Shown: positions 5,315 to 29,629, counted from the first letter of the stretch. The stretch is DNA of 29,629 nt from a virus (IMGVR_UViG_3300009320_001035:1-29629), one strand, 5' to 3'. Notes: a model not told the origin generated them from the sequence alone. Numbers and translations: made by a program.

Positions 5315-5322
5315 TCAGATCA

Positions 5323-13000: not shown

Positions 13001-13674
13001 CTAGGCGACTTGAACAGATTCGGGTACATCTCGTGGGCGACCTCTGGGATCAGGCTGTCGATCACCAAGGGGTCGTTCTGCACGTCCTTCCACGGGGTCT
13101 CCAATTCCTTCTGAATCCTCCCCGTGAACTCCTCATAGCGTCCGTCCTTCTGCAACTTTCGCTCGAAAGCGGCGACCTTAATATTCCGCGAGTACCCGGC
13201 CCACTGTAGGACCTTGTAATAGAGAACGGTGGACACATCCGCCATCGTGGCACCCGCGAGCATTTCGCTGGCCAAATCCAGGAGAACGACAGCGGCTGGA
13301 TACTTGCTGGCAACGGTTGCGAGCAATGCCTTCGTTTGCGGCGTGTTGAGTCTGTCTTGGAGGTGCTTCACGAATGACGTTCCATCGACGGTGACGCTTT
13401 CATCCAAAGCGAGGCCGAGGTACTTCGTAAATGAGCTCTTGCCAGAACCGTAGAAGCCGGAGACCCAGACGCCGACTTCGTTCTCACCGCCCACGTCCAT
13501 CGCCGCCTGCATACGGGTGAGAAGCCTCTCAAGCTGCTCCTCAATGCTGTCGGTAACGATGTACTCGGTGATCTCTGCCTTCAGTCTCGCCTCTTGTGAA
13601 GCGCCGTAGGTGATCACCTTCTCGATCGTCCGGTAGATGTCCTTGGCCGGATCGAACAGGCTCTTTATCTGCAT
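10054..13674 (-). CDS. brxC: BREX P-loop ATPase BrxC (PglY family)
   Basis: A 1206-residue protein typical of BrxC/PglY, the large ATPase of BREX systems. The N-terminus (MQIKSLFDPAKDIYRTI) is characteristic. Walker A is GFYGSGKS at 73-80, and Walker B with a following acidic residue is IVFIIDEVGQYVG at 258-270. The C-terminal third (about residues 880-1150) is rich in Glu, Gln, Leu and Arg and probably coiled. ATG 13674 is preceded by AGAGGACCTGAAAC, a fair ribosome binding site. Twenty bases separate it from brxB, and its TGA abuts the GTG start of pglX. Known roles are from the family: BrxC is required for both methylation and defence in characterised systems. Confidence 0.96.
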   Translation of the reverse strand: MQIKSLFDPAKDIYRTIEKVITYGASQEARLKAEITEYIVTDSIEEQLERLLTRMQAAMDVGGENEVGVWVSGFYGSGKSSFTKYLGLALDESVTVDGTSFVKHLQDRLNTPQTKALLATVASKYPAAVVLLDLASEMLAGATMADVSTVLYYKVLQWAGYSRNIKVAAFERKLQKDGRYEEFTGRIQKELETPWKDVQNDPLVIDSLIPEVAHEMYPNLFKSPSAFNTETADFVTFENERVREMIDIVRETTGKESIVFIIDEVGQYVGSRKELILRLQGLAENLKAIGNGKVWIVGTAQQTLTEDDPRASLNSPELYKLKDRFPIQVDLESNDIKEICHRRLLGKSPDGEKVVGGLFDKHGQALRHNTKLQDARYYDSDFDKAAFVDLYPFLPAHFDILLHLLGTLAKSTGGIGLRSAIKVVQDILVEGPDDQEPVANKPVGWLATTVTLYDSLEKDVRRTSPSVHKAVGKVAIRFPDSQLHQDVAKTVAILQILGNMPVTNQNVTSLMHPAIDAPSQRDKIDAAIADLTNDAIVPFGEKDGNLCFFSEKLNDIDQERGEIPLRTIETRRIQSEALREAFSPLPSTRLHGSLAVTSGLKAVAGSMVSSLAGERETIQTIVEFVSPTDYDTARTRLVEESRQRSSQNTIHLLGRTSQEIDDKVAEIYRCREIVQRYRNDPDAEVKEYCAAQADRATKLTGELQHLLKRCLAQGSFVFRGQTTAVESIDHNVVEASKKHLADVADQIFDRYGEAPVRAETGLAEKFLRAGNLKAVNSSIDPLNLVQVSGGTPHVKTDHKAVVSIRDHIDRHGTVEGKRMINHFTDAPFGWSQDTLRYLVAAMLVAGEIKLKVSGREVTVNGQQAIDALRTNNAFKTVGVSLRDERPSNEVLARAAERLTDLIGDTVIPLEDEISKTATKQFPQFQHQFGPLAEKLDALDLPGADTVRSLNQELADVLLTDASDAPQRLGSEESPLYDGLKWATDVDRALKNGLEPTIRDLQQHRSEIESLPDSGVPGQLRQDLAEELSQLGQRLAQEDFHAHATDLSTTLTAIKARTRDAAIAMAKDQQESIKEVEEKFQRLPEWTELLREEQSQVLNQLDGITLEATEDLAGIKKLLNQSFVIRSQVDAIRDGIIKTARERQLARLEEERKKAQKSGKTRLTRSVSIPASINSAAGLEELIRSLQALKAEMAVYSDIEVTIKIEN

Positions 13675-13694
13675 GTTTCAGGTCCTCTGTTGCG

Positions 13695-14267
13695 CTACCC
13701 ACCTACGTGAACCGACCGGTAATTCCCGTCTTCGGGATAGAAACCCATGAATTTCAGGCGTGTTTTTCCGGTTCGTTCGCCAGGATATAGGAACACAGTC
13801 GGCACGTGGAACTTCCCGTAGAGCTGACTCTCAATGGCACCGATTCGCATGTAAGGATGAAGTGCTTCCAGATTGGTCACCAGGACTATCGCGTCCGACT
13901 TGCCTTCAAGTTTCGCCAACAGCTGCTCAAGTCGCTGCTGGAGCGAACCGTTCGTGAGGGCGTTTTCCAGTGATTCGTTGGTCTTCTCCCATGCCAGCGG
14001 TGCCTTGCGATCGGCAGTAAGCCAGATTTTCCTGAGCGATGCGGATGCAAGAATCTCGGCTATCTGGTCCGCGACGGAGAAGCAATGCACGTCCCAACCT
14101 TCGTTGCGAAGCCGGGCCACCCAGGCAGGGAGCGTCCGCTTCACGTCGAGTATCTGCCCCGGCGGAAACACCAGGTAATATATGGGTTCAAAGCTGGCGT
14201 GTGCCAGATCCCGGCCTTGGCGAATCCGTTCGAGCAGCTCATCGAAGTTAGCCTTCAGCGATGGCAT
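13695..14267 (-). CDS. brxB: BREX protein BrxB (DUF1788)
   Basis: A 190-residue protein matching BrxB (DUF1788): the segment EPIYYLVFPPGQILDVKRTL near the N-terminus, HCFSVADQIAEIL, and a C-terminal FLYPGERTGKTRLKFMGF are typical. Biochemical function is unknown; BrxB is a small core component in most BREX types. ATG 14267 overlaps the end of brxA by 20 bases, implying translational coupling. Length is normal for the family (about 190-200). Confidence 0.94.
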   Translation of the reverse strand: MPSLKANFDELLERIRQGRDLAHASFEPIYYLVFPPGQILDVKRTLPAWVARLRNEGWDVHCFSVADQIAEILASASLRKIWLTADRKAPLAWEKTNESLENALTNGSLQQRLEQLLAKLEGKSDAIVLVTNLEALHPYMRIGAIESQLYGKFHVPTVFLYPGERTGKTRLKFMGFYPEDGNYRSVHVGG

Positions 14268-15033
14268 CCATCAACTCCTTCATGTCGTCGCACCGCCAAC
14301 TGATCCGCGTCACGTCGCCTGCCGTTTGGACGATGAAGACGCCTTTCACTGCAAGCCGTTTCAATTCTCCCACCACATCCGAACGGTTAAGACCGAAAAG
14401 CGTCCAGTCCGGATGAGCGACGACCCGATTGTCGCCGAGCGGGGCGAAGTGGAGGTCGTAGGCCAGGACGATCGTTACGCGAGGCTCGATGCGGAAATCG
14501 AGTATCTTCCGGACGCTTCTTGATCCTCGCCCCAGCAGGCCAAAGTCTGCGCAAGCACCTGTGAGATAGGCGGCAACGCGGCGGACCGTGCTCTCCGACC
14601 ATGGCTTCACCGTGAGGCCGTCCTGATTCGCCCGGACCACAAATTCTCGTGCGTCCTGATTCGACAAAGCGTCGCGGCCGCCGGAGTATGAGCCCCAGAA
14701 GACCTGCCTGACGAAATCAGCCAGGATAGCATTCGCTCGACACGCATACACAAAGAGCAGTTGCTCGAATTCCTTGGACGAGAGGATGGGACGCAGAAGG
14801 CCCAGATACATCGCAGGCCTGCCGTCGTCGGCCATCAGGCGCGGGCAGAAACACTCCGCCACAAGGTTCCGCAGCCGCCGAGCAGACTTCTTCGGGAACC
14901 GCCCAGACTCCAGAGCAACCTGGCACAGCCTTGCTGAACTCATCCCAGGCTCCCAGAGATCAAGGAGAGCTCTGGTTTCTTCAACCATGCCCAGACCGGC
15001 CTGGAGCTGAGTTGTGTAGACACGTCTTGGCAT
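14248..15033 (-). CDS. brxA: BREX protein BrxA (DUF1819)
   Basis: A 261-residue protein of the BrxA family (DUF1819), a small DNA-binding winged-helix protein in characterised systems. I chose ATG 15033 (MPRRVYTTQLQAG) because it sits in a TAATG overlap with the brxE stop and matches the usual BrxA opening. An upstream extension to 15111 would only overlap brxE. Family-like segments include FPKKSARRLRNLVAECFCPR, PILSSKEFEQLLFVYACRAN and the central WSESTVRRVAAYLTGACADFG. It is followed by brxB with a 20-base overlap. Confidence 0.92.
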   Translation of the reverse strand: MPRRVYTTQLQAGLGMVEETRALLDLWEPGMSSARLCQVALESGRFPKKSARRLRNLVAECFCPRLMADDGRPAMYLGLLRPILSSKEFEQLLFVYACRANAILADFVRQVFWGSYSGGRDALSNQDAREFVVRANQDGLTVKPWSESTVRRVAAYLTGACADFGLLGRGSRSVRKILDFRIEPRVTIVLAYDLHFAPLGDNRVVAHPDWTLFGLNRSDVVGELKRLAVKGVFIVQTAGDVTRISWRCDDMKELMDAIAEG

Positions 15034-15533
15034 TACTTGTCCGTGAAGTAGGGGTAGACCTCTGTGCAGCGAGCCAGCCCTGTGGCGTAGTACGATGCGA
15101 CTTGTCCCCATGAAGCTCCCTGACGTAGGTCGTCTATCGAACCAACCTTCACAGGTCCGACGCCCTCGTAGTCCTCGGTAGTAGAAATCTTGTTGAGATA
15201 TGTAAAGGCCACTTCGGGGCTTACGACATGCTCGGCAATCACTTGGTTGTGCTGTTGAAGAGCGTCGTGAAGGCTCCGCTCCATATCCTCCGGAAGCCGG
15301 AAGATGTGGAAGACGTTGCCGATGCCGATACGCTCATCGTGAAGGACTGCCGCGACCCGACTTGTCGCATGGTACTGCGCTAGAATCTGGGTTCGAGGGA
15401 AGATCGGACCGAGAAAGGCCTGGCTCCCAGTGCCAAAGAAAGAACTGGACCACCAGCGCTTCTCAGTCTGTTCACCGAGAAAGCCAACAACCGCCCGGAG
15501 AACTGCGAGCTCTCGAAGTTGGTCAACCTTCAT
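15033..15533 (-). CDS. brxE: BREX protein BrxE
   Basis: A 166-residue protein that I recognise as BrxE, a small protein of unknown function described as a component of type 6 BREX. Recognisable segments are VVGFLGEQTEKRWWSSSFF near the N-terminus, ILAQYHATSRVAAVLHDE, and GIGNVFHIFRLPED in the middle. ATG 15533 follows GGTGAACAGC (Shine-Dalgarno GGTGA, spacing 5); in-frame GTG 15542 and TTG 15545 are less likely starts. It is first in the operon and its TAA overlaps the brxA ATG. Presence of brxE in an operon that ends with brxL instead of brxD/brxHI is unusual. Confidence 0.85.
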   Translation of the reverse strand: MKVDQLRELAVLRAVVGFLGEQTEKRWWSSSFFGTGSQAFLGPIFPRTQILAQYHATSRVAAVLHDERIGIGNVFHIFRLPEDMERSLHDALQQHNQVIAEHVVSPEVAFTYLNKISTTEDYEGVGPVKVGSIDDLRQGASWGQVASYYATGLARCTEVYPYFTDK

Positions 15534-15756
15534 GCTGTTCACCAAATGTCCATGCGACGTATTCCGATATCAGCTACGGTCCCGCATGCTTTGCTCAGAG
15601 CCACCTAGCCGACGCTCCACCCTCTCACGATGAGACTGCCAGTGTTGCCCGACCATCCACCCGAACCGCTTCCCTTCCTGTGCCAACATGGAGCGTTGCC
15701 TTGGACAGATTCATACAGATGGCCAGCTCGTCGGTAGTCAACACCGTGTCCTACGG

Positions 15757-17263: not shown

Positions 17264-18178
17264 TTACGCACTCGACGACGAACTGCTGGACAAGCTGCGG
17301 TTGTCGTCGCCGAGGACTTCGTTGGTGAAATGGAAGAGCATCTCGGTCCCGCCTGCGCCAGTGATGGCTTCGTGGAGCCAGACGGGGGTGCCGACGGGGA
17401 CGGGGAGGTACTCGGGGTCCTTCAGGTCGGCCAGGTCGACGCCGTTGCCCTCGGTTCCCGAGCCGGTATTGATGTCCTCGTACGTGTTCCAGGCGTAGCC
17501 CGTCTTGCCGCCCGAGATCGCGGCCCAGCCGCCGTACCCGGCCGTGTTCTTGTAGGCCTCGGCATACGAGTACTTCCACTTGTTTCCGCCAAGGCTGTTG
17601 ATTGCCGTGATCTCCGCCCAGAAGCCCCGCTCGGTCGGGCTGTCGGACAGTTGCACGACCGCCCACTGCTCGCCGATGCCCGAGGCGTGCCACAGCATCC
17701 GGGCGTTTCCGAGCTGGCAGCTCTCCAGGTACCCCGTCTGGCCGTGGACGAGGTCCGCGCACGGGTGCATCGTGTTGTGGATGATGTCGACCTTGACGGG
17801 CGTGACGCCGCTGACAAGCGCCCGGCCGAACTTGCCATCCTTCACCGGCTCCTGGACGATGGCGATCTTCCCGATGTACGTCGGGATCGCCGGCGTGGCG
17901 GTCGTCATGGCGACGCCGTTCTTGAATCGCTGGAGGTTATCCGTGGGCGTGATTACCGGATTCGCGAGCCCCACGATGGAGAACCGATCGAGGTCGCCGC
18001 CCGTGTCGTTCCGGATGAGAATGATCCCGCTCTGTGCGACGATCGGCGCGGAGGTTCCGGCACCGTACTTCTCCCGCTCCCGGTGCCCCCGGGCGGCGTC
18101 CACAAACCCGTTGAACGTCGATGCGGGAATCCGGACCTTGTCGCCCGTGCTGACCTTCTTGAAGGGGTCGCCGGTCAT
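17264..18178 (-). CDS. Phage structural protein with C-terminal poly-serine tag
   Basis: A 304-residue protein starting at ATG 18178 behind an excellent ribosome binding site (GGGAGGAAAC). It follows the two genes downstream of the tape measure gene, a position of distal tail or fibre proteins. The N-terminus (MTGDPFKKVSTGDKVRIPAS, then FNGFVDAAR) and a beta-rich middle are typical of appendage proteins, and the C-terminal block GNGVDLADLKDPEYLPVPVG continuing through VWLHEAITG is duplicated as a remnant at 15870. It ends in seven serines plus alanine (bases 17270-17290), encoded by a mixture of TCN and AGY codons. It is the last phage gene before the DUF4145/BREX junction; no baseplate or host-binding gene follows. 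Confidence 0.75.
   Translation of the reverse strand: MTGDPFKKVSTGDKVRIPASTFNGFVDAARGHREREKYGAGTSAPIVAQSGIILIRNDTGGDLDRFSIVGLANPVITPTDNLQRFKNGVAMTTATPAIPTYIGKIAIVQEPVKDGKFGRALVSGVTPVKVDIIHNTMHPCADLVHGQTGYLESCQLGNARMLWHASGIGEQWAVVQLSDSPTERGFWAEITAINSLGGNKWKYSYAEAYKNTAGYGGWAAISGGKTGYAWNTYEDINTGSGTEGNGVDLADLKDPEYLPVPVGTPVWLHEAITGAGGTEMLFHFTNEVLGDDNRSLSSSSSSSA
17300..17450 (-). repeat. 151-bp direct repeat, copy B (in intact phage gene)
   Basis: Partner of 15888-16038, same length, same orientation and same reading frame. It lies inside the 3' end of the structural gene at 17264-18178. The DNA between the two copies (16039-17299) carries the DUF4145-like gene. Confidence 0.85.
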
Positions 18179-18189
18179 GTTTCCTCCCG

Positions 18190-19032
18190 TCACGTCCCGA
18201 TGCCGAGGTCGGAGAAGTCGCCGCTGTCGTACACCCGCTCGACGTACACCGCCTTGGGCCGCTTGACGATCGCCTTGGCCGTCGTGTCCTCGGCCTCCTC
18301 GTACCGGACCCACAGGTATTCCCACCCCTTCTTGGCGATGGACGTGATATCGCCCACCGTCAGGCCCGTCCTGTTCGGGCTGGCGGCGAACCGGAAGGTG
18401 ATCTCCCACTGGTCGGTTCCGCGTTGCGAGCCCGATGCGCCGAGGAACAGGACCTCCCCCTCGCTGAAGCCCTTGAACGCGTCGGCGTTCGTCTTGTAGG
18501 TCAGGGCGTACAGCTTGCCCTTGTAGGCCGTCGTGACGGCGCTGTCGGCCATGTAGTGCGTTTCAGAGAAGTGGTACGCCGCCAGGAGGATGTCGGCGCC
18601 TTCGACCTCCTGGCCGTTGAAGCCGATGGCCCCCTTGAAGTCGGGGGCCGTCTCGCCGGCCGGGGCGTAGCTGTTGATCGTCTGCAGGCTCTGCGTGATG
18701 TGCTGCGTGCCGCCGGCGGTGTCGAAGCTGTACGAGGAGTCCCCCGTCTCGGTCGGCTCGCGCTTGCCGTACCGCACGGTGACGCGCCACTCCCCGTCAT
18801 CGGCGTTCGTGTCCACCCACACCGGCTCGATGCCGATGCTCTGCCGCGTAAGGCCCTCGTAGTCGCCGGGGCTGTTCGCCTCCGCGACGGCCTTGACGAC
18901 CGTATCCTCCGCCGTGCCGCTGCACCGGTAGATCAGCTCGACGCTCGCGGCGTCACCCGTGGTCTGCGGCCGGCTGTCGACCATCTCCTCGAACATCCCG
19001 GCAAACGCGCTGCTACTGCTGCTACTGCTCAT
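18190..19032 (-). CDS. Phage tail-region structural protein with N-terminal poly-serine tag
   Basis: A 280-residue protein from ATG 19032, nine bases after the tape measure stop, preceded by AGGACGATGCG. It opens M-Ser7-Ala (serine codons at 19009-19029, all AGY). The rest is a beta-rich protein without transmembrane segments; recognisable stretches are WRVTVRYGKRE, IGFNGQEVEGADI and GWEYLWVRYEEAED. Its place directly after the tape measure gene suggests a distal tail or tail-tip component. I recognise no named family. Confidence 0.7.
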   Translation of the reverse strand: MSSSSSSSAFAGMFEEMVDSRPQTTGDAASVELIYRCSGTAEDTVVKAVAEANSPGDYEGLTRQSIGIEPVWVDTNADDGEWRVTVRYGKREPTETGDSSYSFDTAGGTQHITQSLQTINSYAPAGETAPDFKGAIGFNGQEVEGADILLAAYHFSETHYMADSAVTTAYKGKLYALTYKTNADAFKGFSEGEVLFLGASGSQRGTDQWEITFRFAASPNRTGLTVGDITSIAKKGWEYLWVRYEEAEDTTAKAIVKRPKAVYVERVYDSGDFSDLGIGT

Positions 19033-19041
19033 CGCATCGTC

Positions 19042-21045
19042 CTACCCGAACGCCAAACCGTTCCGTTGCTCTTCGAGGATCTTCCTCGTGTTCGCGGCCG
19101 TCTGCTCGGTGGCGACCGCCGTCCGCTCCGCCGCAGGGCCGGCCGCCCCCAGGCGAGAGGCGAACGCGCCGCTGAACGTCCCCACGACGCCCGCCCTGGC
19201 CTGCTCGACGCCCTCGCCGGCCCCGGCCAGGAGGTTCTTGAACTTGTTGACCAGCGCGTCGGGGCCTTCCAGCGTTCCCGGACCGCCATCGGCGTCCCGG
19301 GCGTCCCGCTTGCCCTTGGCCTCGGCGATCGCGGCCTTCCACTCGTCGCGGGCCGCGCCGAGTTCGGCCTCCGCGGCGGAGATCTGATCGGTGTGCCCCT
19401 TGCTCAGGGCGTCCAGCCGCTTCTGGTGGGCCGTGTCGATGTCGGACAGGACCGTCTCGTGGAGTTTCGCGGAGGCGGTTCTGCTCTTCTGCCGTTCGAG
19501 TTCTCGCTGGGCGGACTTACGCTGCTGCTCATCGTCGATCTCGTTGATGGCCTTGTTGTACTCGACGTCGACCTGCCGGTTGGCCGCCTCCAGGTCGATC
19601 TCCTCGTCGAACAGGCTCTTGATCCAGTTCCACGACTTCTTGGCCACCGCCTTCATGCCCTCCCACGTGCGGCTGAAGAACGCCGTGAAGCCGTACCACG
19701 CCTTGGCCAGGAAGCTCGTCGTCTCGATCCATGCCACTTCCAGCCCGTGCCAGACCGTCGCGGCGACCTTCACCGCCCCGTAGAAGGCCGAGTACGAGAG
19801 CTTGATGAACCACCCTTTGAACGCCTCCCACGCCATCGCGAGGCCCGCGATGCCCCGCTTCCACTCCATCTTCAGCGTCAGCCAGAGGATCTTCGCCGCC
19901 TGGCCGATGTCGCCATCCGCCAGCGCCGCGCTGATCCCTTCCCAGGCCTCCGAGGCATCGGTGCCCAGGACGCCGAACTTCTTCCGCAGCCAGTCGATCG
20001 CCTCGCCGCCCTTGCCGCTGGCGTAGAGCAGGTACGCCCCCATCGCCGCGACCGCCGCGATCACCAAGCCGATGGGGCTCAGCAGCAGGCCGATCATCGA
20101 ACCGAGCACCCCCAGCGCCGCCGACACGCCCGTCAGGATCATCTTGAGCCCCCCGAGGGCCATGCCGACCAGGACAATGCCCTTGCCGAGGATCACCAGG
20201 GCAATCCCGCCGGCCAGAATCCCGGCGGCGACCTGCAGGATCGTCACGACCACCCCGCGATTCTGCCGGATCCACTCCTGAGAGGCGACCACCAGATTCG
20301 TGATCCGCTCCGCCACGTCCTGGAGCACCGGGGCCAGCGCCGCGCCGAGATTGAACACGGCCATCTTCGTGGACTTCCACAGGCCGTCCATCGCGTCGGT
20401 GAAGGCCTCCGCCGCCGCCGCATCCTCGCCCCGCATCGTCAGCCCGAGGGCGCGGGCCTTGGCCTGCAGCTTCTCAATGCCCGCCGCGCCGTCGGCGAAC
20501 ATCGGCAGCAGCATCGTCCCCGCACGGCCGAACAGGCCCATCGCAATGGCCGCCTTCCTGGAGGGGTCCTCCACCTGGCTCAACCGATCGCCGAGGAGCT
20601 TGAACTGCTCTTCGGGGGCCAAGCCGTCGAGATCCTTGAACGTCAGGCCGAGATCGTCCAGGCCGTCCGTCGCCGTCGACAGGCCTCGCCCGGCGTCGTA
20701 GACGCTCCGCTGCATCCGCCGAAGCCCCTTCTCCAGCGTGTCGAGATCGGTCCCCGTCTGGCTGGCGACGAACCGAAGCTCCGAGAGGGCTTCGACGCCC
20801 ACCCCCGTGCGCTTGGCCATCTTCGCGACCGAATCGCCCATCGAGGCGAACACCCTGGACGCCGCGAGCAGCGGCGCCATCATCACCGCGCCCATGCCCG
20901 CCATCTTCAGGCCGAGGCCGCTGACCATCGAGCCGAAGGCCTTCAGCTTCGCCGAGGCGGCCTTCAGGCCCCGGATGAGCTTGCTGTTGTCGGCGAACAG
21001 TTCGACGTACGCCTTGCCGGCTCGAATTCCTCTGGTGGATGGCAT
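19042..21045 (-). CDS. Phage tail tape measure protein
   Basis: A 667-residue tape measure protein, which sets tail length and is ejected with DNA. ATG 21045 (MPSTRGIRAGKAYVELFADN) overlaps the stop of the preceding chaperone frame (TGATG); this opening, with SKLIRGLKAASAKLKAFG next, is typical. Hydrophobic segments include GLGLKMAGMGAVMMAPLLAA (about 44-63), VVVTILQVAAGILAGGIALVI (near 265-285) and LGSMIGLLLSPIGLVIAAVA (near 320-340). The C-terminal third is Ala/Glu/Lys-rich coiled coil. At 667 residues, a short-to-moderate siphovirus tail is expected. Confidence 0.9.
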   Translation of the reverse strand: MPSTRGIRAGKAYVELFADNSKLIRGLKAASAKLKAFGSMVSGLGLKMAGMGAVMMAPLLAASRVFASMGDSVAKMAKRTGVGVEALSELRFVASQTGTDLDTLEKGLRRMQRSVYDAGRGLSTATDGLDDLGLTFKDLDGLAPEEQFKLLGDRLSQVEDPSRKAAIAMGLFGRAGTMLLPMFADGAAGIEKLQAKARALGLTMRGEDAAAAEAFTDAMDGLWKSTKMAVFNLGAALAPVLQDVAERITNLVVASQEWIRQNRGVVVTILQVAAGILAGGIALVILGKGIVLVGMALGGLKMILTGVSAALGVLGSMIGLLLSPIGLVIAAVAAMGAYLLYASGKGGEAIDWLRKKFGVLGTDASEAWEGISAALADGDIGQAAKILWLTLKMEWKRGIAGLAMAWEAFKGWFIKLSYSAFYGAVKVAATVWHGLEVAWIETTSFLAKAWYGFTAFFSRTWEGMKAVAKKSWNWIKSLFDEEIDLEAANRQVDVEYNKAINEIDDEQQRKSAQRELERQKSRTASAKLHETVLSDIDTAHQKRLDALSKGHTDQISAAEAELGAARDEWKAAIAEAKGKRDARDADGGPGTLEGPDALVNKFKNLLAGAGEGVEQARAGVVGTFSGAFASRLGAAGPAAERTAVATEQTAANTRKILEEQRNGLAFG

Positions 21046-21257
21046 CAGGTCCTGCCCTTGAATCTCGCTCGAAGCATCGCCCACGACTCTTCCGGCGGCA
21101 CCGCAGACTCCGCCACGTGGAGCGGGTTGAAGTCCCGCGGCTTCGCGGGCCTCTGGCCCTTGCCGCGGAACACGTTCGCAATCATCGCCAGGACCGAACT
21201 CGTGTGTCCCCACGCCGCCTCACTGCGGCCGCGGGCCATTTCCACGAGCTGCCGCAA
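21045..21257 (-). CDS. Tail assembly chaperone, second frame (lambda T-like)
   Basis: From TTG 21257 it has 70 codons (RQLVEMARGR, AAWGHTSSVLAMIANVF, DFNPLH), resembling the downstream chaperone frame of siphophages. It lies in the -1 frame relative to the preceding chaperone. Protein-like sequence continues upstream of the TTG, overlapping the end of that gene: GSDVWRSVWQLAGIVGVDPG and then PLTLRQ, from about base 21345. No ATG or GTG start exists there, so the frame is probably entered by ribosomal frameshifting, as in lambda G/GT, or by coupling. The candidate slip region CTGGAAAGG at about 21345 is not a canonical heptamer. Confidence 0.7.
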   Translation of the reverse strand: MRQLVEMARGRSEAAWGHTSSVLAMIANVFRGKGQRPAKPRDFNPLHVAESAVPPEESWAMLRARFKGRT

Positions 21258-21259
21258 CG

Positions 21260-21736
21260 TCAGCGGTCCGGGGTCGACGCCGACGATCCCGGCAAGTTGC
21301 CAGACAGAGCGCCAGACATCGCTTCCTGTAACTGCCTTTCCAGGTCGCCGCTGTCGAGCTTGGCCTCGCTCATCCGGATCGCCGTCGCTTCCAGCGTCTT
21401 CAGCTTGCCGAGAGCCTTGGCCAGGAGCCCCCGGCGGGGCTGAGGGAAGAACGCGACCAGCTCCTCGAGGAACGCCTCGGAGGCCCGCTCGATCGCATCG
21501 CCGGCCATGGCCCGGCCGAAGTCCTCATCACTGACCTTGTCCCGGTCCGCCTGGTCCTTGCAGAGGCAGTAGACCGCGTCCACCAGGAGCACCGGATCGC
21601 CCGCCAGCCGCTCGATCAGCTTGCCGTCGAGCGCATCCATCAAGTCGACGTCCAGGAGATCCTTGACCCGCTTGATCGCCGTGACGTTGATCTCGACTTC
21701 CCACGCGCGGCCCTTGCTGTCCTCAAACTTCCTCAC
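21260..21736 (-). CDS. Tail assembly chaperone, first frame (lambda G-like)
   Basis: A 158-residue protein from GTG 21736 with GGGAGCGTGAGGC before it. The opening RKFEDSKGRAWEVEINVTAI and the helical, acidic body (LMDALDGKLIERLAGDP, LCKDQADRDKVSDEDFGRAM) are typical of the protein between tail tube and tape measure genes that keeps the tape measure soluble during assembly. The last 30 codons overlap a second coding frame. Position, length and composition support the call. Confidence 0.82.
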   Translation of the reverse strand: MRKFEDSKGRAWEVEINVTAIKRVKDLLDVDLMDALDGKLIERLAGDPVLLVDAVYCLCKDQADRDKVSDEDFGRAMAGDAIERASEAFLEELVAFFPQPRRGLLAKALGKLKTLEATAIRMSEAKLDSGDLERQLQEAMSGALSGNLPGSSASTPDR

Positions 21737-21762
21737 GCCTCACGCTCCCATCCGCCGGCCGG

Positions 21763-22215
21763 TCAGGCCGAGCTGCTGGAGGATTCCACGTCCAGCCACT
21801 GGCTGAACAGGGACAGCTTCGCCGTCACCGAAACCGAGATCGCTTCCTCCAGCGGCTCGGAGCGGCTGAAGTTCGTGATCTCGAAGTCGCCGACCAGGCC
21901 TTCCGTGCCGACGGCGTCCTTGGCCCCGGTAAGCGCCGCCAGGCGGAGGGGCGTGCCGTTGATGAAGGCGTTCTTGACGGCGATAAAACCCGCATCCGCC
22001 TCCTTCCAGACCATCTCCCACTCCACGGTGCCTTCCCGCAGCGTGGCGGCGGTGGCTCGCCAGCCGCTGTTGGCGCGGGTCGTGACGTCGGCCTCGCCCC
22101 TTTCCATGGGCACCGTCAGGTCCTTGACGTTCGTCATCTCCGTCAGAATCGCGAGGGCCGCGCCTTCGGCGCCGTAGTACAGCTTGGCGTCCATTCCGAG
22201 TTTGTAGTCGGGCAT
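21763..22215 (-). CDS. Major tail tube protein with C-terminal poly-serine tag
   Basis: A 150-residue protein from ATG 22215 with AGGAGAGACAAGC upstream. The opening MPDYKLGMDAKLYYG, ILTEMTNVKDLTVPM and the middle EADVTTRANSGW with TLREGTVEWEMVW are characteristic of siphovirus tail tube subunits. It precedes the two chaperone frames and the tape measure gene. It ends in five serines and alanine (bases 21769-21783, TCC TCC AGC AGC TCG), a tag shared with other virion proteins here. Confidence 0.88.
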   Translation of the reverse strand: MPDYKLGMDAKLYYGAEGAALAILTEMTNVKDLTVPMERGEADVTTRANSGWRATAATLREGTVEWEMVWKEADAGFIAVKNAFINGTPLRLAALTGAKDAVGTEGLVGDFEITNFSRSEPLEEAISVSVTAKLSLFSQWLDVESSSSSA

Positions 22216-22227
22216 TGCTTGTCTCTC

Positions 22228-22668
22228 CTATCGAACCGAGTTCGCCCACATGGCGGGCAGCTTCGGCTGTTCCCGCTCGAAGGCCGGGCCCATGTAGGGC
22301 CGCGGCCGGATCTTCACTCTCCGCGTGCGGCGGTTGCGTCGCAGGCCCACCCGCATGGCGGACGTCCCGCCGTGCTCGAGCGCCTCTGGGGCGCTGCCGA
22401 CTTTCTGGTTGAGCTTCATCGGGCCGATGACGACCGACCGGCGGGCGTCGTCGTAGCCGAAGAGGATGTACCTCTTCAGCAGGCCGCCGTGGCTGCTCGG
22501 CGGCTCGCCCGGGCGGCTGATCCGCTTGCGCTTCCGGATGCTCGACCGCGCGGCCGTCCGCACGAACGCCCCGAAACGCCCCAGCACCCGCCGCGTGGCC
22601 TTGTCGACCGCGCGGGCGACCTTCGGCGCGTCGAAGAACATCCGCTTGGTCACGAAGCCGATCATCAT
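22228..22668 (-). CDS. Tail completion / neck protein (HK97 gp10-like)
   Basis: A 146-residue basic protein; ATG 22668 overlaps the stop of the holin-like gene (ATGA). Segments SIRKRKRISRPGEPPSSHG, VVIGPMKLN and the C-terminal RPYMGPAFEREQPKL match the minor virion proteins of the HK97 gp10 group that sit between head connector and tail tube. The gene order (just before the tail tube gene) agrees. Confidence 0.78.
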   Translation of the reverse strand: MMIGFVTKRMFFDAPKVARAVDKATRRVLGRFGAFVRTAARSSIRKRKRISRPGEPPSSHGGLLKRYILFGYDDARRSVVIGPMKLNQKVGSAPEALEHGGTSAMRVGLRRNRRTRRVKIRPRPYMGPAFEREQPKLPAMWANSVR

Positions 22669-22895
22669 TGCCCCGGTCGCGTTGCGTCCGACCTGTCCAC
22701 CGAGGCCTCGATCACGCCGTACCCGAGGGCGGCGAGGACCAGGACCACGAGTTCCGCGATCTTGACCGCGCTGCTTTCCAGGACCTCGCCCTGGCCCGGC
22801 GTGAAGATCGCCACGCACGCGGCGATCTGGACCAGCAGGGCCGTGAGGAACTTGCGGCTCGAAAGGCGTTTCAGGATGTCGTGCAGTGTGTCCAT
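22665..22895 (-). CDS. Holin-like small membrane protein
   Basis: A 76-residue protein from ATG 22895 behind a strong AGGAGTGAC site. It has a basic N-terminal stretch (ILKRLSSRK) and two hydrophobic segments (FLTALLVQIAACVAIF and AELVVLVLAALGYGVIEA), a topology common in phage holins. It lies with a lipoprotein gene in the late operon, but no endolysin is seen in the window, so a lysis role is inferred from topology only. Confidence 0.55.
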   Translation of the reverse strand: MDTLHDILKRLSSRKFLTALLVQIAACVAIFTPGQGEVLESSAVKIAELVVLVLAALGYGVIEASVDRSDATRPGQ

Positions 22896-22896
22896 G

Positions 22897-23106
22897 TCAC
22901 TCCTTGTCCGGCTCATTGTCCGGCCGGTCGTGTTGACCCGCGTCGTGAATCTCGTCCGTCGTGGCCTCGTTGGAAGCCAGCGCCGCAGCCATTTCCTCGT
23001 CGCTCGGGTCTTGCCCGGCGTTGATGAAGTTGTCGATGATCTGCATCGCCGGTTCCGCGATCAGGCCGCCGATGTACAGCCATTGAAGGATCTCCAGCGG
23101 TGTCAT
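22897..23106 (-). CDS. Small phage protein of unknown function
   Basis: A 69-residue protein from ATG 23106, with AAAGGAGCATCCCC as a good ribosome binding site. The start overlaps the lipoprotein stop (ATGA). The N-terminal 25 residues (TPLEILQWLYIGGLIAEPAM) are amphipathic to hydrophobic, and the remainder is acidic and hydrophilic (DPSDEEMAAAL, RPDNEPDKE). No family recognised. Confidence 0.6.
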   Translation of the reverse strand: MTPLEILQWLYIGGLIAEPAMQIIDNFINAGQDPSDEEMAAALASNEATTDEIHDAGQHDRPDNEPDKE

Positions 23107-23480
23107 GGGGATGCTCCTTTCCCGTGGGTGTCGTGCCATTGCCTGCCCTGCATCTGCCTGGTGACGAGTTCGAGCAGGATCTGATTCCACTCGCGAATGA
23201 CGCTCGACGTGGGCTGGCCGAGTTCGATTGCCGCCTCCCACCGGGCGAGCATCTCCATCGCGGCGTCCGCCGTGTCGTCGATCACCTTGCCCTGCGATTC
23301 CGTGAAGGCCCCCGCCGTACGATAGAGGACAATGGCCCTTCCCGCCGCGTCGTATGCCTTCCGCGCAGCCAGTAGGTCCTGCTTCGGCGTCGTCGGCCAC
23401 CAGGACGGCTGCGTCGTGCAGCCGCTTGCCGGAAGCGTGAGGATCAGGGCCGTGGCCATCCACTGCAGTGCGCGTTTCAT
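23103..23480 (-). CDS. Phage-encoded lipoprotein
   Basis: A 125-residue protein from ATG 23480 (ATGA overlap with the kinase-like gene upstream; GGAGTCGGACA before it). It begins with a lipoprotein signal peptide: basic MKR, hydrophobic MATALILTLPASG, and lipobox Cys at residue 21. The mature part is helical (LLAARKAYDAAGRAIVLY, MEMLARWEAAIELG). A position beside a holin-like gene allows an outer-membrane spanin-like or superinfection-exclusion role, but neither is shown. Confidence 0.7.
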   Translation of the reverse strand: MKRALQWMATALILTLPASGCTTQPSWWPTTPKQDLLAARKAYDAAGRAIVLYRTAGAFTESQGKVIDDTADAAMEMLARWEAAIELGQPTSSVIREWNQILLELVTRQMQGRQWHDTHGKGASP

Positions 23481-23881
23481 TGTCCGACTCCTTCCCCGGG
23501 GCAGGCGCCCCGGAACATTTCCGCGAGTTCTTCCTTGCCCGGTTCCTCGTACGTCGTGCCCTCCCACAGCGTCCCGCCCGGCAGGTAGATCAACTGCGAA
23601 GCCGACCACATCTTCCGGGCCATCATGCGGAGATCCTTCGTCGGTGCGAACAGCTCGACGATCACGGTGTAGCCCTGCTCCTCGAGCAGTGCCGCAAACG
23701 TCGCGACCAGCTTGACGTTCCGCTTGCGGCCGGCGTCGGTGTACGCCGACGGGAACCACTTGCGGACCCGCGCGCCGTCCAGGACGGTCACACGCTCGCC
23801 CCGCTGGGACCGTTCGTAGGCCATGCGGTAGGCCAGCGTCGTCTTGCCCGCGCCGGATTTGCCCGTGATGAAGTGGACCAT
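23477..23881 (-). CDS. Adenylyl-sulfate kinase-like P-loop protein
   Basis: A 134-residue protein from ATG 23881, overlapping the upstream stop (TGATG). It carries Walker A ITGKSGAGKTTLA (GKSGAGKT at 7-14), LDGARVRKWF at 34-43 (APS kinases have LDGD-R) and RKRNVKLVATFAALLEEQGY, matching the APS kinase helix with R-N-I-R. APS kinase phosphorylates adenylyl sulfate to PAPS, the sulfate donor for sulfotransferases. The protein is shorter than cellular CysC (about 200): the region after YTVIVELFAPTKDLR is compressed, though a YEEP motif near the end is kept. The second Asp of LDGD is Ala here, so substrate may differ. Confidence 0.72.
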   Translation of the reverse strand: MVHFITGKSGAGKTTLAYRMAYERSQRGERVTVLDGARVRKWFPSAYTDAGRKRNVKLVATFAALLEEQGYTVIVELFAPTKDLRMMARKMWSASQLIYLPGGTLWEGTTYEEPGKEELAEMFRGACPGEGVGQ

Positions 23882-24234
23882 CAGGCCGGCTCCTCAGCAG
23901 CCGCGCTGCTCTCGCGGATCTCCGTGGCCGAGATCGCCTCGATCTCCGCGGGCAGGTCGATCTGCACGACCTCCCACCCGACGTCCCGGCCGTGGACGAC
24001 GTGCGTGATGTCGGCCTTCAGGTTGATGATGCGAATCGCGCCCGCGTCGATCTCGGCGCGGTACCTCTCGCGGAACATCTCCCGGCGATCCTTGACGGTG
24101 TGCGGATTGTCCTCGCCGACCTCCGTCTCCCGCAGGCCGATCACCACCTGCCCGTAGCGCTGGATCGCCTCGCGGATCAGGGCGTCGTGCCCGTCGTGGA
24201 GCGGCTGGTATCGCCCGATCAGTAGTGCTGCCAT
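23881..24234 (-). CDS. Nucleotidyltransferase of the NMNAT/cytidylyltransferase fold
   Basis: A 117-residue protein from ATG 24234, two bases after the methyltransferase stop. It opens IGRYQPLHDGHDALIREAI with the nucleotide-binding HDGH at 13-16 and ends with ISATEIRES, the second conserved motif of this fold. The middle RETEVGEDNPHTVKDRREMF is also typical of NadM-like proteins. It transfers a nucleotidyl group from an NTP to a phosphorylated acceptor; the acceptor here is unknown. NAD metabolism, or activation of a sugar or sulfate moiety for the neighbouring enzymes, are both possible. Confidence 0.8.
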   Translation of the reverse strand: MAALLIGRYQPLHDGHDALIREAIQRYGQVVIGLRETEVGEDNPHTVKDRREMFRERYRAEIDAGAIRIINLKADITHVVHGRDVGWEVVQIDLPAEIEAISATEIRESSAAAEEPA

Positions 24235-24236
24235 GT

Positions 24237-24809
24237 TTACACCCACACCAGGCCGAAGCCGGTAAAGCCCTGAACGAGCAGCGTGTTCTTTCGTTCCCCG
24301 AGGTCGCGCCAGACGGCGTTGACGCTCGGGCGGTGCCTGCGTGCCATCCCGTCGTTCTCGCACTCACCGCAGTCGTGGAAGATCACCAACCCGCCGGGCC
24401 TGACCAGCGGAGCGTAGTGATACGCATCGCACGCGACGCCGTGGATGGAGTGGTCCCCGTCGATCAGCAGCACGTCCACCGGACGCCCGCCGAGGATCGT
24501 CTGGACCTGCTCGACCGTCGCCGGGTCGAAGCTGCTGGCGAGGATCACGTCGGCGTCGTAGCCGTCCGCCTCGCAGAGTTCCTCGGCCATCGCCACCAGC
24601 CGCTCGCCCTGATTGCCCTTCGGCGGCGGGCTGGGGCGGTCCACGGCGATCAACTTCGCGCCCGGGTCCATCATGCGACCGAACACGCGGAGCGATCCGC
24701 CGTGGCGGCTGCCGATCTCCAGGTACGTCTTCTTCGGGTCGATCTCGGCGACGTGCTCCTGCACGATGCCGAGCGCCCACTTGTTCATCAGCGGTGCGGG
24801 GTCAGGCAT
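24237..24809 (-). CDS. Class I SAM-dependent methyltransferase (CmcI/Methyltransf_24-like)
   Basis: A 190-residue protein from ATG 24809, overlapping the end of the glycosyltransferase gene by eight bases. Motif I is YLEIGSRHGGSLRVF (about 29-43), and the post-motif Asp lies in IAVDRP. The downstream VDVLLIDGDHSIHG with LVRPGGLVIFHDC is typical of the small-molecule and sugar methyltransferases related to cephalosporin hydroxylase. The context suggests methylation of a sugar. Confidence 0.82.
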   Translation of the reverse strand: MPDPAPLMNKWALGIVQEHVAEIDPKKTYLEIGSRHGGSLRVFGRMMDPGAKLIAVDRPSPPPKGNQGERLVAMAEELCEADGYDADVILASSFDPATVEQVQTILGGRPVDVLLIDGDHSIHGVACDAYHYAPLVRPGGLVIFHDCGECENDGMARRHRPSVNAVWRDLGERKNTLLVQGFTGFGLVWV

Positions 24810-26574
24810 GGGCGGCTTCCTTTCCGGCTTCGATCAGAGCCTCCGTGCCGGGCAGATGCCCGAACAACTGCACCGACAGCGCGACCAGTTCCTCATCCTT
24901 GAAGGCATCGCGGAACCACGGCTTGTCGGCGCAGTTCTTCCACCGCTCGGTGTAGCTGCCCTGGCGAGCCCGCCCGTCGAGCTTGCGGTGCTCGAACGAA
25001 CTGCCCGCGCCCTGAATCGGCACGCGGTTCATCGAGTCGTCGCTGCGGAGGTCGAGGCCGAGCCACTCGAAAAGCTCATCGCGATAGGCCGCGTCGCAGA
25101 GCCAGCGGTTGTAGTTGATCGCCACCTCGCCCGGGGGGTGTTCCTCGATGATCCGCAGACACTCCCGGGCGTAGTGCTTCCACCGATCGGCCCAGCGGGC
25201 GATGCCTTCGGTCGTCGGCTCGCCTGTCTCGGTCGGCTTGTGAATGAGCGTCCAGTCCCCCCGTCGTTGGCCCATCTTGACCGTGCTCGCCAGGTGGTTG
25301 AACGGGTCGCGGATCAGAAAGACGCGCGTGCGGCGCGGGGTCTCGACGCCGCCCAGGTAATCGACCTGATCCGGGGGCGTGTCCTCATGCGAGCACAGCA
25401 CCATCGCGAGGTCGGCGCCGCGGAACGCCGCCAGCGGTTCGCGCCTGGGGATGCAGGGCAGGCGACTCGACCGACGAGCGCTGCGGTTCTGATCGATACT
25501 GTTGCGGAACAGCACCCGGCCGTCGGTCTGCGACGCGATCCAGTCGAGAACGGGGTGCCCGGCCGATCGCTTCATGTGCGCGAAGGCGATCTCCCGCTTG
25601 GCCCGGAATCGCTCGACCCGGTGGATCGCCCCGCCCTGCCGGTAGCGATTCACGGCCCGGCACACATCCTCGGGCGTGATCATGTCCATGCAGCGCGGAA
25701 TGCTGACGTCGCCCGCCGGAACCGGATGCTCACAGACCTTCTTGCGGTCCTTCTTGCTGCCGTCGCCCATCTTGTGGCAACGGGATCGCCAGCAGCCGCC
25801 CTTCTCGCAGCACGGCAGAGCCCCCACCGTGTGGAGGAACTGATGGGCCGGGTAGGCCTCCCAATGGGTAGGCTCGCGGCCGCCGGCGATCACGACGCAG
25901 GGGCGGTTGATGAGCCGTCCTGGCGGGGTCGGAACCGCCGCCGCCAGGTGCATGGCCATCGTCACGGGGCAGATCACGCCCGCGGCGTGATGGACCAGAC
26001 GCACGAACTGGCGGAGGTCGGTCTTGCCGACGAGATTCAGTACGCCCTCCAGCGGCGGGTGCCAGTGCTTTGATTCGCCGCACTGGACGAACTGCACTTT
26101 TCCGGCCAGCCGGTTGACGACTTCCTGGTAGTACGCGGGCGACCACCACTTCGCGGTGAAGTCGAACTTCCCGCCCGCCACGATGATCCAGAAGTCGCCC
26201 TTGTGGCCGAAGGTCTCCTCGACCTGGTTCGTCCACGATTTCTCCTCATCCGACAGGTGGATGTCGCCGCTGAACGGGCCTTGGGGGATCGAGATGCCGA
26301 GCTTGCCCTCCAGGAACTTCCGGAAGCCGTGGATAAAGTGGTACGGCAGCTTGTTGCTCCGGTGGATCAGCGGGTACTGGCACTTGATGTGCTCGGCGTC
26401 GGGATCGTCGTCCGCGATCTCCGTCAGGTGCGGGTTGTTCTCCCACAGCGCAGGCGCCGCCGTGCGCACGTCGATCTGCCAGTCGGGATGCGCGCGTTTG
26501 AGGTCGCGCACCGCCGCCGTCAGCATTACCACGTCGCCAGGCGACTGCCGGTTGGTGAGGATCAGCTTCTTCAT
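24802..26574 (-). CDS. Fusion: GT9-type glycosyltransferase + sulfotransferase-like domain
   Basis: A 590-residue protein from ATG 26574 (GGGAACC before it). The N-terminal part (1 to about 300) looks like family 9 glycosyltransferases (heptosyltransferase type): SPGDVVMLTAAVRDLKRAHP at 11-30, an acceptor-domain opening near 130-165, and the nucleotide-sugar region VICPVTMAMHLAAAVPTP with VVIAGGREPTHWEAY. A Cys cluster follows (LPCCEKGGCWRSRC). The C-terminal part (about 370-580) resembles a sulfotransferase: TRVFLIRDPFNHLAST near 415-430 as a 3'-phosphate-binding type motif, then INYNRWLCDAAYRDELFEWL. It could add and sulfate a sugar, with the APS-kinase-like neighbour supplying PAPS. The GT9 call is firm; the sulfotransferase call is moderate. 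Confidence 0.78.
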   Translation of the reverse strand: MKKLILTNRQSPGDVVMLTAAVRDLKRAHPDWQIDVRTAAPALWENNPHLTEIADDDPDAEHIKCQYPLIHRSNKLPYHFIHGFRKFLEGKLGISIPQGPFSGDIHLSDEEKSWTNQVEETFGHKGDFWIIVAGGKFDFTAKWWSPAYYQEVVNRLAGKVQFVQCGESKHWHPPLEGVLNLVGKTDLRQFVRLVHHAAGVICPVTMAMHLAAAVPTPPGRLINRPCVVIAGGREPTHWEAYPAHQFLHTVGALPCCEKGGCWRSRCHKMGDGSKKDRKKVCEHPVPAGDVSIPRCMDMITPEDVCRAVNRYRQGGAIHRVERFRAKREIAFAHMKRSAGHPVLDWIASQTDGRVLFRNSIDQNRSARRSSRLPCIPRREPLAAFRGADLAMVLCSHEDTPPDQVDYLGGVETPRRTRVFLIRDPFNHLASTVKMGQRRGDWTLIHKPTETGEPTTEGIARWADRWKHYARECLRIIEEHPPGEVAINYNRWLCDAAYRDELFEWLGLDLRSDDSMNRVPIQGAGSSFEHRKLDGRARQGSYTERWKNCADKPWFRDAFKDEELVALSVQLFGHLPGTEALIEAGKEAAHA

Positions 26575-26580
26575 GGTTCC

Positions 26581-26772
26581 CTACGGTGCGGGCTGCTCCG
26601 GCTGCTCCGGGACCTCGGGCGTGACCGCGTCGAGGACGGCCTTCTCATCCGCGATCTGCACGTTGAGCGGGTCGAGCTTCTTTCGGTACTCGGCCCGCAG
26701 TGCCGTCCGCCTTGCCTTCAGCCTTACCAGCCGGTCGGCGACGCGTTTTCGTGCTCGGGCACTGATTGCCAT
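26581..26772 (-). CDS. Small basic/helical phage protein
   Basis: A 63-residue protein from ATG 26772, with an excellent AGGAGAACGAC ribosome binding site. The first 45 residues are highly basic and helical (AISARARKRVADRLVRLKAR); the end is acidic and Pro-rich (PEVPEQPEQPAP). It sits between the poly-serine protein and the glycosyltransferase fusion. No family recognised. Confidence 0.6.
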   Translation of the reverse strand: MAISARARKRVADRLVRLKARRTALRAEYRKKLDPLNVQIADEKAVLDAVTPEVPEQPEQPAP

Positions 26773-26801
26773 GTCGTTCTCCTGTCGCTGCGGGGTTGCC
26801 G

Positions 26802-27641
26802 CTATGCGCTGCTGCTACTGCTGGAACTGCTGCTTGTCGCATCTTCGCCCTCGGTGTAGAGCACCACGCAGCCGTCTCCGTCGGTGGCCACGGCGAAGCC
26901 GTAGTCGCTCAGGTCCGCGTTGGGGGGAAGCTCGAGCGCCTCGCCCGGCGCGAGCACCCACGCAGCGTTCATCGGGTCCGTCTTCGCCCAGATGTAGACG
27001 TTGCCCGTGTTCACGCCGGGCAGTGCGTCGCCCAGCGGGAACTCGGCCTCGGCCTCGGAGCTGCTCGAACTGCTCGGGGCTGCGCTGCTAGACGAACTGC
27101 TGGAGCTGGAGCTGGAGCTGCTGCTCGAGCTGCTGCTCCCCGCGACCTCGCTCGGCTTGACGGCCTGGACCTTCGCCTGAATGTAGGGGCGCGACTGCTC
27201 GGACAGCAGGACGGTCGCGATGCCCGCAGCTTGGCCGCTCGAACTCGACGCCGAGGACGCATCAGCGATCACACGCAGCATCGACCTTAGCGGGCGGGCG
27301 TTGCCCTGGTGCTCGGGCACGGCTTCCTGCACCGCGTCGTTGACGAGTTGAAGCGTGCTCTCCGTCGCCTGCCCGCTGCCGTTGCTCTGGATCGCTGACA
27401 GCGCCGCGGCCAGTGTCGTCTGCGTAGCCGGATCGCCCGACAGCTTCGTCAGGATCGACTGCAGGACGGTCTCCAGGTCCGCCTGCGTCTTGCCGTTGGC
27501 GATGCCGTCCACGATCGCGGTCACGTCCACGTCCGCCACGTCGACCGACAACTCGGCGTCGCCGATCTTGACCAGCAGCGCGCCGGTGTCGTCGTCGATC
27601 ATCACGTCGACCGAGCCGATATGTCGCCTGGCATACCCCAT
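26802..27641 (-). CDS. Poly-serine virion-type protein of unknown function
   Basis: A 279-residue protein from ATG 27641, one base after the preceding stop, with GGAGAG upstream. Residues 1-110 contain beta and helical segments (SVDVMIDDDTGALLVKIGDA near the start, then a tail-fibre-like linker). A tract of about 18 serines, Ala-Ala-Pro and six more serines (bases 27057-27137) divides it from a C-terminal domain (NVYIWAKTDPMNAAWVLAPG, ALELPPNADLSDYGFAVA). It ends with nine serines and alanine (26808-26834). Serine codons mix TCN and AGY, so the tracts are held at protein level. The gene lies in the head-tail part of the late operon; fibre or decoration roles are possible. Confidence 0.6.
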   Translation of the reverse strand: MGYARRHIGSVDVMIDDDTGALLVKIGDAELSVDVADVDVTAIVDGIANGKTQADLETVLQSILTKLSGDPATQTTLAAALSAIQSNGSGQATESTLQLVNDAVQEAVPEHQGNARPLRSMLRVIADASSASSSSGQAAGIATVLLSEQSRPYIQAKVQAVKPSEVAGSSSSSSSSSSSSSSSSSSAAPSSSSSSEAEAEFPLGDALPGVNTGNVYIWAKTDPMNAAWVLAPGEALELPPNADLSDYGFAVATDGDGCVVLYTEGEDATSSSSSSSSSA

Positions 27642-28754: not shown

Positions 28755-29629
28755 TCAGGCCGCGTTGGTCGGGATGTACCGCAGGATCACCGAGAACGCG
28801 GGCAGGTCCGCCGTGGTTCCCTGCGTCACCGAGAGCGTCACGTGCTCCCCGGCTGCCAGAGCCTTGTGCGTCGCATCCGGTGTGCCGAGGTCCTCGTAGT
28901 CGCTGCTCGGCGGCTGCGTGCCCGCGTCGTACGTTTTGGAAACGATCTCGTTGCTCCCATCGTCGGCCAGGGCCACAACGGCCGTGTTGGAGTCGTCCAC
29001 ATCCGCCGGGGCGCCCTCGGTCAGGATGCCGACCGATACGAGCGTCACCGCCCGGGGATGGACGAACACCGGCCGGGCACTGATGTCGGCCCCGGCGGCG
29101 AGGTCCTCGACGCGGATGATCGCCAGCTGCTCGGCGTGGGCGTCGTTGAGCGTCAGCGTCCCGTCGGCAGCCAGTGTCGCATCGCCCGAGACCGCCACGT
29201 CCTCGAAGCTGTCCCCGTCGGCAACGAGGATCCGCCCGGCCGTGTAGAGCACCGCTCCCACGTCCGAGAGGTCCCCCAGGCCCAGCGTCTCGGCCGCTGC
29301 GGCGGAGGGAACGAGCAGGATGCGCACCGTCGAACCCGTCTCGGCGGCTGCAACCAGGACGAAGCCCAGGAAGGTGTTGCCCGAGGCCGTCGCCGTCGCG
29401 GCTCCGGTCCCGGCCGTGCCGCCGTAGGGATCGCCGTCGGCGTCCCAGTAGACCTTGCCCCCGACGGTGGCGAAGGCCTCCTGGGCCTTGACCACGTCGA
29501 AGATGCCCGTGACGGCCAAGGCGCCCAAGACGCTGGCCGCGATGGGCTGCTTGGCGATGCCGATCAGGCCGCTGAGGACCACCACGTCCCCGGCCGCCAC
29601 GGCGCTGCCGGGCGTGTAATCGATTGCCG
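28755..29629 (-). CDS. DUF2190-type capsid decoration/cement protein, 5' end cut by window
   Basis: The frame runs to the right edge of the window without a start. In-frame codons upstream of GTG 29600 read AIDYTPGSAVAAGDVVVLSG, which is the usual N-terminus of DUF2190 proteins, so the true start lies outside. The N-terminal domain (VVVLSGLIGIAKQPIAASVL, ALAVTGIFDVVKAQEAFATV) is the family's beta-barrel; a variable middle and a C-terminal beta domain (about residues 170-281) follow. DUF2190 proteins are small capsid-associated (cement/decoration) proteins encoded near the major capsid gene. At least 291 residues are visible, longer than many members (about 110), because of the added C-terminal part. 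Confidence 0.8.
   Translation of the reverse strand, partial: AIDYTPGSAVAAGDVVVLSGLIGIAKQPIAASVLGALAVTGIFDVVKAQEAFATVGGKVYWDADGDPYGGTAGTGAATATASGNTFLGFVLVAAAETGSTVRILLVPSAAAAETLGLGDLSDVGAVLYTAGRILVADGDSFEDVAVSGDATLAADGTLTLNDAHAEQLAIIRVEDLAAGADISARPVFVHPRAVTLVSVGILTEGAPADVDDSNTAVVALADDGSNEIVSKTYDAGTQPPSSDYEDLGTPDATHKALAAGEHVTLSVTQGTTADLPAFSVILRYIPTNAA

Follow-up and report, generated by a model that had tools for sequence, protein, structure and literature searches.

Near-pure polyserine tags at the ends of phage virion-type proteins, found with a four-cysteine GT9 glycosyltransferase: candidate acceptors for O-glycosylation

To our knowledge, glycosylation of the virion is known from only a few phages. 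Virion O-glycosylation has been shown experimentally for the mycobacteriophages Che8, Corndog and Myrna (Freeman et al., 2023, as cited in PMC12363180 and PMC11652166) and, as far as these citing papers relate it, a phage-encoded glycosyltransferase has been proposed, or demonstrated, as the enzyme that modifies their capsid and tail-tube proteins. TibC, an enzyme of the BAHT family, adds heptose to serine, not threonine, acting on the serines of a repetitive protein, and four cysteines in an insertion of its C-lobe coordinate iron (PMC4358343). The third group to be considered are the GT9 lipopolysaccharide heptosyltransferases (WaaF, WaaC and the Veillonella protein 3TOV). The literature that we searched, mostly without subscription journals, yielded no account of phage virion proteins with polyserine tags.

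We analyzed a virus record of 29,629 bases (the window). A siphophage head-tail module, encoded by the minus strand, makes up its right half. Naming genes by their lower coordinate, the order on that strand is cement (28755), 27643, 26802, a cargo cassette, the neck-type gene 22228, tube (21763), 21260, tape measure, 18190 and 17264 (Table 1). The likeness to the mycobacteriophages lies in a phage-encoded glycosyltransferase and its proposed capsid and tail-tube targets; as far as the mycobacteriophage work is described in the papers that cite it, the difference is that experiment stands behind it, whereas the window offers a proposed polyserine acceptor and a four-cysteine GT9 known from sequence alone.

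Table 1. Features of the head-tail module and its cargo cassette in the window.
Feature	Coordinates	Strand	Evidence
Tail-module protein after 18190; C-terminal Ser7-Ala tag 17267-17290	17264-18181	-	Homologues in the same place, 161 loci
Conserved tail-module protein directly after tape measure; N-terminal Met-Ser7-Ala 19006-19032	18190-19032	-	170 homologues
Tape measure protein, untagged	19042-21045	-	phrog_8462, E 1.5e-42
Major tail tube protein; C-terminal Ser5-Ala tag 21766-21783	21763-22215	-	PF06199 above cut-off, phrog_1407
Small APS-kinase-like P-loop kinase, cassette	23477-23881	-	PF01583, E 2e-16, residues 2-95; PDB relatives
Nucleotidyltransferase (CTP_transf_like), cassette	23881-24234	-	PF01467
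Methyltransferase (Methyltransf_24), cassette	24237-24809	-	PF13578, E 1e-14; same family beside the G112 GT9
GT9 glycosyltransferase domain (residues 1 to about 318) with a fused second half whose family is uncertain	24802-26574	-	PF01075; model, fold search
Protein with internal Ser18 and Ser6 tracts (27057-27137); C-terminal Ser9-Ala tag 26805-26834	26802-27641	-	Relatives only in L004/L005
Phage cement (head decoration) protein, untagged in the window	28755-29600	-	PF09956, E 5e-14, phrog_122

The original prediction placed Ser(n)-Ala tags at the ends of four virion-type proteins, and all four are found at the predicted places, on the minus strand. Three are C-terminal, the serines being followed by a single alanine and the stop codon: Ser7 in the 17264 protein (17270-17290), Ser5 in the tail tube (21769-21783) and Ser9 in the 26802 protein (26808-26834). 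The latter also carries an internal tract of Ser18 (27084-27137), AAP and Ser6 (27057-27074). The fourth tag is N-terminal, as the 18190 protein begins Met-Ser7-Ala (Ser7 at 19009-19029); it hinges on the ATG at 19030-19032, which has AGGA about 7 nt upstream, and the homologues of this protein start near its internal Met13. Serine amounts to 5-7% of the tagged proteins, and the naive probability of each terminal run is about 1e-7 to 1e-11. When window ORFs of at least 100 codons were searched for terminal single-residue runs of at least four (13 residues tested), three ended in serine, one in arginine and none in any other residue. As for the term virion-type, family assignments uphold it for the tail tube only (PF06199, phrog_1407), and the 17264, 18190 and 26802 proteins lack such support. 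The first two keep their place behind the tape measure in about 160-170 tail modules, which suggests that they are virion-type as well; a fold search with the 18190 protein returned only weak baseplate-like matches (E about 0.1), and no relatives of the 26802 protein were found outside L004 and L005.

These two loci stood out in a tblastn comparison of the window proteins against 180 fetched loci, in which the tube had 139 matches, the 18190 protein 170 and the 17264 protein 161. Kinase, nucleotidyltransferase, methyltransferase and the 26581 and 26802 proteins are present only in L004 and L005, and a comparable tag on the tube (SSSSSSA) occurs only in these nearest two of the 139 tube homologues, most of the others ending otherwise (e.g. 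PSWIGG or PEWMTVP). The survey of related phages for co-occurrence of tag and cassette, as originally proposed, thus found the two linked. No comparable N-terminal serine run was found among the 170 homologues of the 18190 protein. From the cement to the neck gene, L004 is 94-100% identical to the window, falling to 80% in the tube and 56% in 21260, which are also the values for L005; we note a recombination boundary at 21763-22668, where the identity of L004 drops after the neck gene to L005-like values. As window, L004 and L005 are one lineage by descent, independent tests were needed. Search by peptide patterns in viral contigs found no relatives of 17264-18181, the family having been recovered by tblastn on the fetched loci, and neither the tube nor the GT9 matched annotated phages. 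Several 17264 homologues (L029, L035, L047, L075, L079, L105, L135) end in long Ser/Gly-rich regions in which serine makes up as much as about half. In several planctomycetes the tail module is present in two to four copies per genome (L116/L164, which are one chromosome; L115/L124/L154; L163/L168/L170/L179), perhaps as several prophages or domesticated tails.

It had also been claimed that both TCN and AGY serine codons are used, and that selection therefore acts on the amino acid and slippage plays no part. The codon mix is indeed found in the three C-terminal tags and the internal tract, and the N-terminal tag of the 18190 protein uses AGY codons only. The codon argument is weaker than claimed, since duplication could copy a mixed unit whole, as in (AGCTCC)3 and (AGCAGCAGCTCS)2. 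That selection acts on the amino acid is supported by the comparison with L005, in which serine is kept while tract lengths and codon order differ: in the 26802 protein, the internal Ser18+6 of the window corresponds to Ser15+13 in L005 and the tail of Ser9 to one of Ser10, again with another codon order. The tube tag is likewise kept in two alleles 80% identical, with codons TCC TCC AGC AGC TCG and TCG TCG TCC AGC AGC TCG.

The GT9 domain of the cassette matches PF01075 (Glyco_transf_9) at 36.9 bits, against a curated cut-off of 22, and scores far below the cut-off of the NCBIfam heptosyltransferase models. Cys255, 261, 281 and 295 are invariant in 29 of 29 complete members of its clade. A structure model was built from a 30-sequence alignment (A2), with pLDDT above 90 over most of residues 1-310; its closest fold is 3TOV (Z 24.6, 269 residues aligned, rmsd 2.7), followed by WaaF (1PSW, 21.4), TibC (20.2) and WaaC (19.6), the fold being GT-B as in solved GT9 enzymes. 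From WaaF, WaaC and 3TOV, with which it shares fold and Pfam family, the window enzyme differs by a four-cysteine insertion and by lying within a phage tail module. With the BAHT enzymes TibC and AAH it shares a GT9-type fold and four conserved cysteines, which lie within an insertion of the C-lobe and about equally far from the end of the domain; the spacing is C-x5-C-x19-C-x13-C versus C-x2-C-x15-C-x11-C in BAHT. Unlike them, it is phage-encoded and fused to partner domains, and has no sequence match to TibC, which was absent from the matches of a PDB profile search and found only by fold. Residue 1 pairs with TibC residue 96, leaving nothing before the catalytic domain; as the N-terminal beta-barrel of TibC (residues 1-97) is missing, we do not file the window GT9 as BAHT. 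Judging from their place and conservation, the four cysteines may form a structure resembling the iron finger of TibC and, by analogy, the enzyme may work like BAHT.

The genes around the GT9 had been read as a sugar/sulfate cassette. The sulfate part is weakly supported: the kinase covers part of an APS kinase only (residues 2-95), no sulfotransferase family was matched and, of 37 GT9-bearing records, just 3 have a Sulfotransfer_3 gene. Inspection by eye shows sulfotransferase-like motifs (RVFLIRDPFNHLAST) in the second half of 24802-26574; a sulfotransferase identity found no Pfam, PDB or hhalign support and no match to the sulfotransferase of L102. The same half gave a low-confidence model, and a pattern scan found no relative beyond L004. 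For the nucleotidyltransferase, the nearest NCBIfam models are NMN adenylyltransferases, below cut-off. The GT9 proteins of other phages carry fused GT4 or methyltransferase domains or, as judged by eye, a GT2-like one, a variety that would be as expected of a glycan assembler.

Starting from the enzyme, an alignment of five GT9 members (A1) was used as query and yielded 33 viral loci. Counting loci with an ORF that has both a run of at least seven serines and a Ser-rich C-terminus, C-terminal Ser-tailed proteins are found at 13 of 34 GT9 loci versus 3 of 175 control tail-module loci (P 2e-9). Once the GT9 proteins are clustered at 70% identity into about 21 lineages, 4 of 21 have such tails (P 0.003). 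A looser count of Ser-rich proteins (22/34 versus 68/175) was discarded as inflated because of Ser/Gly-rich fibres. In a 159-kb contig (L102), a 1279-aa protein with long polyserine is followed by a Sulfotransfer_3 protein and then by a GT9 at 50% identity, with a Ser-rich 202-aa protein and further GT4/GT2 proteins downstream. In members of the L192-L200 group, the surroundings of the GT9 encode two to four Ser-tract proteins, and in L206, L208 and L211 different proteins bear C-terminal tails of tens of serines. Most GT9 loci have no long serine run within 10 kb, L103 being one where none was found nearby. In the planctomycete class where related prophages live, the clade is present in 2 of 198 genomes, and in one of these (L347) the sole serine run is of eight residues, about 4 kb off in an ORF of 1644 aa. 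A tag common in the host, which would have counted against the original interpretation, was not seen in four related planctomycete genomes: none of their pattern matches was a pure Ser8-Ala-stop end.

For the opposite direction, viral contigs were scanned with a pattern of eight serine codons in an order not favoured by the known GT9 loci, and whole records were then searched with A1. At E of at most 1e-60, the clade was detected in 7 of 50 polyserine records (G086, G088, G090, G096, G111, G112, G125) versus 0 of 50 control records, these being shorter on average (P 0.012); one control gave a partial match at 6e-7. A further batch of 26 records returned G112 again and no other clade member. 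As many polyserine records are short fragments, the missing GT9 in the other 43 of 50 is weak evidence. PF00535 (GT2) was present in 7 of the 50, a count made with no control set alongside. An earlier whole-record pattern, 12xWSN, proved too loose, since several matches did not encode serine and the reading meant as control is identical to the reverse complement; pure-serine counts were used instead. The recurrence of polyserine proteins with a GT9 of the same clade in unrelated phages supports the original interpretation in part.

Tags in these contigs are found on several kinds of virion protein. In L261, the major head protein (phrog_10, E 2e-75) has a C-terminal polyserine tag and a second protein, after the apparent tail terminator, ends SSSSSSSTG; in its annotated capsid relatives Shoya, Kumotta and Wayne (55-65% identical) no tag was found. 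A gpJ-type protein (phrog_31) of L258 ends in S12-A, and tags are found on decoration-type proteins of L307 (phrog_122), L230 and L302 (both phrog_673) and on the major tail proteins of L233 and L306 (phrog_158), two or three tagged proteins being present in each of twelve contigs. In the unrelated 33-kb phage G112 (L343, L344), a decoration-type protein ends in Ser26, the tail tube in Ser18 and the protein that directly follows the putative tape measure in Ser9-Ala, while long serine tracts occur in a further two; downstream of the tagged genes lie a Methyltransf_24 gene, an epimerase and a 674-aa GT9-GT4 fusion. Across 49 distinct tags, lengths range from 5 to 42 serines, and the run is followed by nothing (11), A (10), T (4), G (3), AGA (3) or others. 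TCN and AGY codons are mixed in 48 of 49, a result partly forced by the search pattern; what the pattern does not force is that identical codons rarely run to more than two along long tags, even in that of 42 serines. A small zinc-ribbon-like protein of L302 (7629-7973), probably non-structural, ends in Ser16-AGA, so tags may extend beyond virion proteins. Another type of polyserine end, Ser(n) followed by a Gly/Tyr-rich stretch (e.g. SSSGGY), was seen in contigs without the GT9 clade (L237, L242, L249, L252, L254, L281, L285, L292).

O-glycosylation is the best supported reading, given that polyserine and the GT9 are associated in both directions, that the tags are composed of serine only and that the virion targets are shared: the Ser(n)-Ala ends would be add-on acceptor tags by which phage-encoded enzymes glycosylate virion proteins, a proposal to which we give an even chance. 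The chemistry, the role of serine as acceptor, the sugar and the benefit are what we infer. The four-cysteine GT9 would put the first sugar, perhaps heptose or a related one, on the serines of the disordered tags; its partners (the methyltransferase, nucleotidyltransferase, kinase and fused second half in the window; the GT4, methyltransferase or GT2-like domains joined to the GT9 elsewhere) would supply donors or decorate the glycan; and the tagged tube and tail-module proteins would display a sugar coat that alters adsorption or hides the particle. As unrelated phages repeat the pairing of tag and GT9, add-on serine tags are probably used to sugar-coat particles. Somewhat more doubtful is the wider reading that, in many unrelated tailed phages, a portable near-pure polyserine tag on the ends of capsid, decoration, tail-tube and tip proteins is a general acceptor for phage-encoded O-glycans, begun in some by the four-cysteine GT9, giving a virion-wide modular coat in which the amino acid is selected and the codons are scrambled. 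Counting against a glycosylation tag are a GT9 model at least as close to ordinary GT9 (3TOV, WaaF) as to TibC, the untagged cement protein of the window, the non-virion-like tagged protein of L302, and Che8, whose capsid and major tail proteins have ends without polyserine though its virions are known to be glycosylated; so do the polyserine records in which the clade went undetected and the GT9 loci without near serine runs. If polyserine tails are acceptor tags, glycosylated virions could be predicted from sequence alone in uncultured phages, the tag and GT9 pair would offer a simple system for studies of bacterial O-glycosylation, and a striking feature common to capsid, decoration and tail proteins of unrelated phages would be explained.

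Fibre proteins of this phage family commonly have Ser/Gly-rich linkers, and some bacterial secreted enzymes have polyserine linkers; the tags might be unmodified, hydrophilic disordered spacers or solubility tails of that kind, with the GT9 cassette as unrelated cargo. The absence of the clade from most polyserine records fits this. Yet glycine, threonine or asparagine would serve equally well in a spacer and the tags are nearly pure serine; they are placed at the ends of several proteins per virion, not between domains, and polyserine and one GT9 clade are associated in both directions. We consider such spacers unlikely, though they are the strongest competitor. Improbable to a further degree is that the serines carry another modification, e.g. 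phosphate or a host-made glycan, while the GT9 acts elsewhere, for instance on polysaccharide of the host surface, so that other phages are kept out. Phages are well known to encode transferases that change host surfaces, lipopolysaccharide is the usual substrate of GT9 enzymes and polyserine phages without the clade exist; against this, the clade lies within late structural modules and adjoins tagged genes (window, L102, L192-L200, L206/L208, G112).

That alanine is the commonest residue after the run would suit a shared sorting, assembly or protease signal, Ser(n)-Ala being read by a virion or host factor, but we hold this to be quite improbable, given the varied ends and lengths, the N-terminal position of one window tag and the 137 of 139 tube homologues without a tag. 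Imperfect codon repeats in the internal tract of the 26802 protein aside, functionless products of replication slippage or unit duplication can hardly account for terminal runs so improbable at the serine background, kept across diverged alleles and found again, in frame and with their codons scrambled, on several virion proteins of a single phage.

Two further observations were made. A GT9-clade gene of L338 (82-3738) is split by an intein-like stretch with a LAGLIDADG endonuclease domain. In the window, the tail module is immediately followed, in the same orientation, by a BREX-type defence cluster (522-15545) with a tRNA-Met (33-106); this cluster comprises a BrxC-like ATPase (10054-13674), PglZ-like and PglX-like genes recognized by eye, and a BrxL (522-2645) with an extra C-terminal MIT_C phospholipase-D-like domain.
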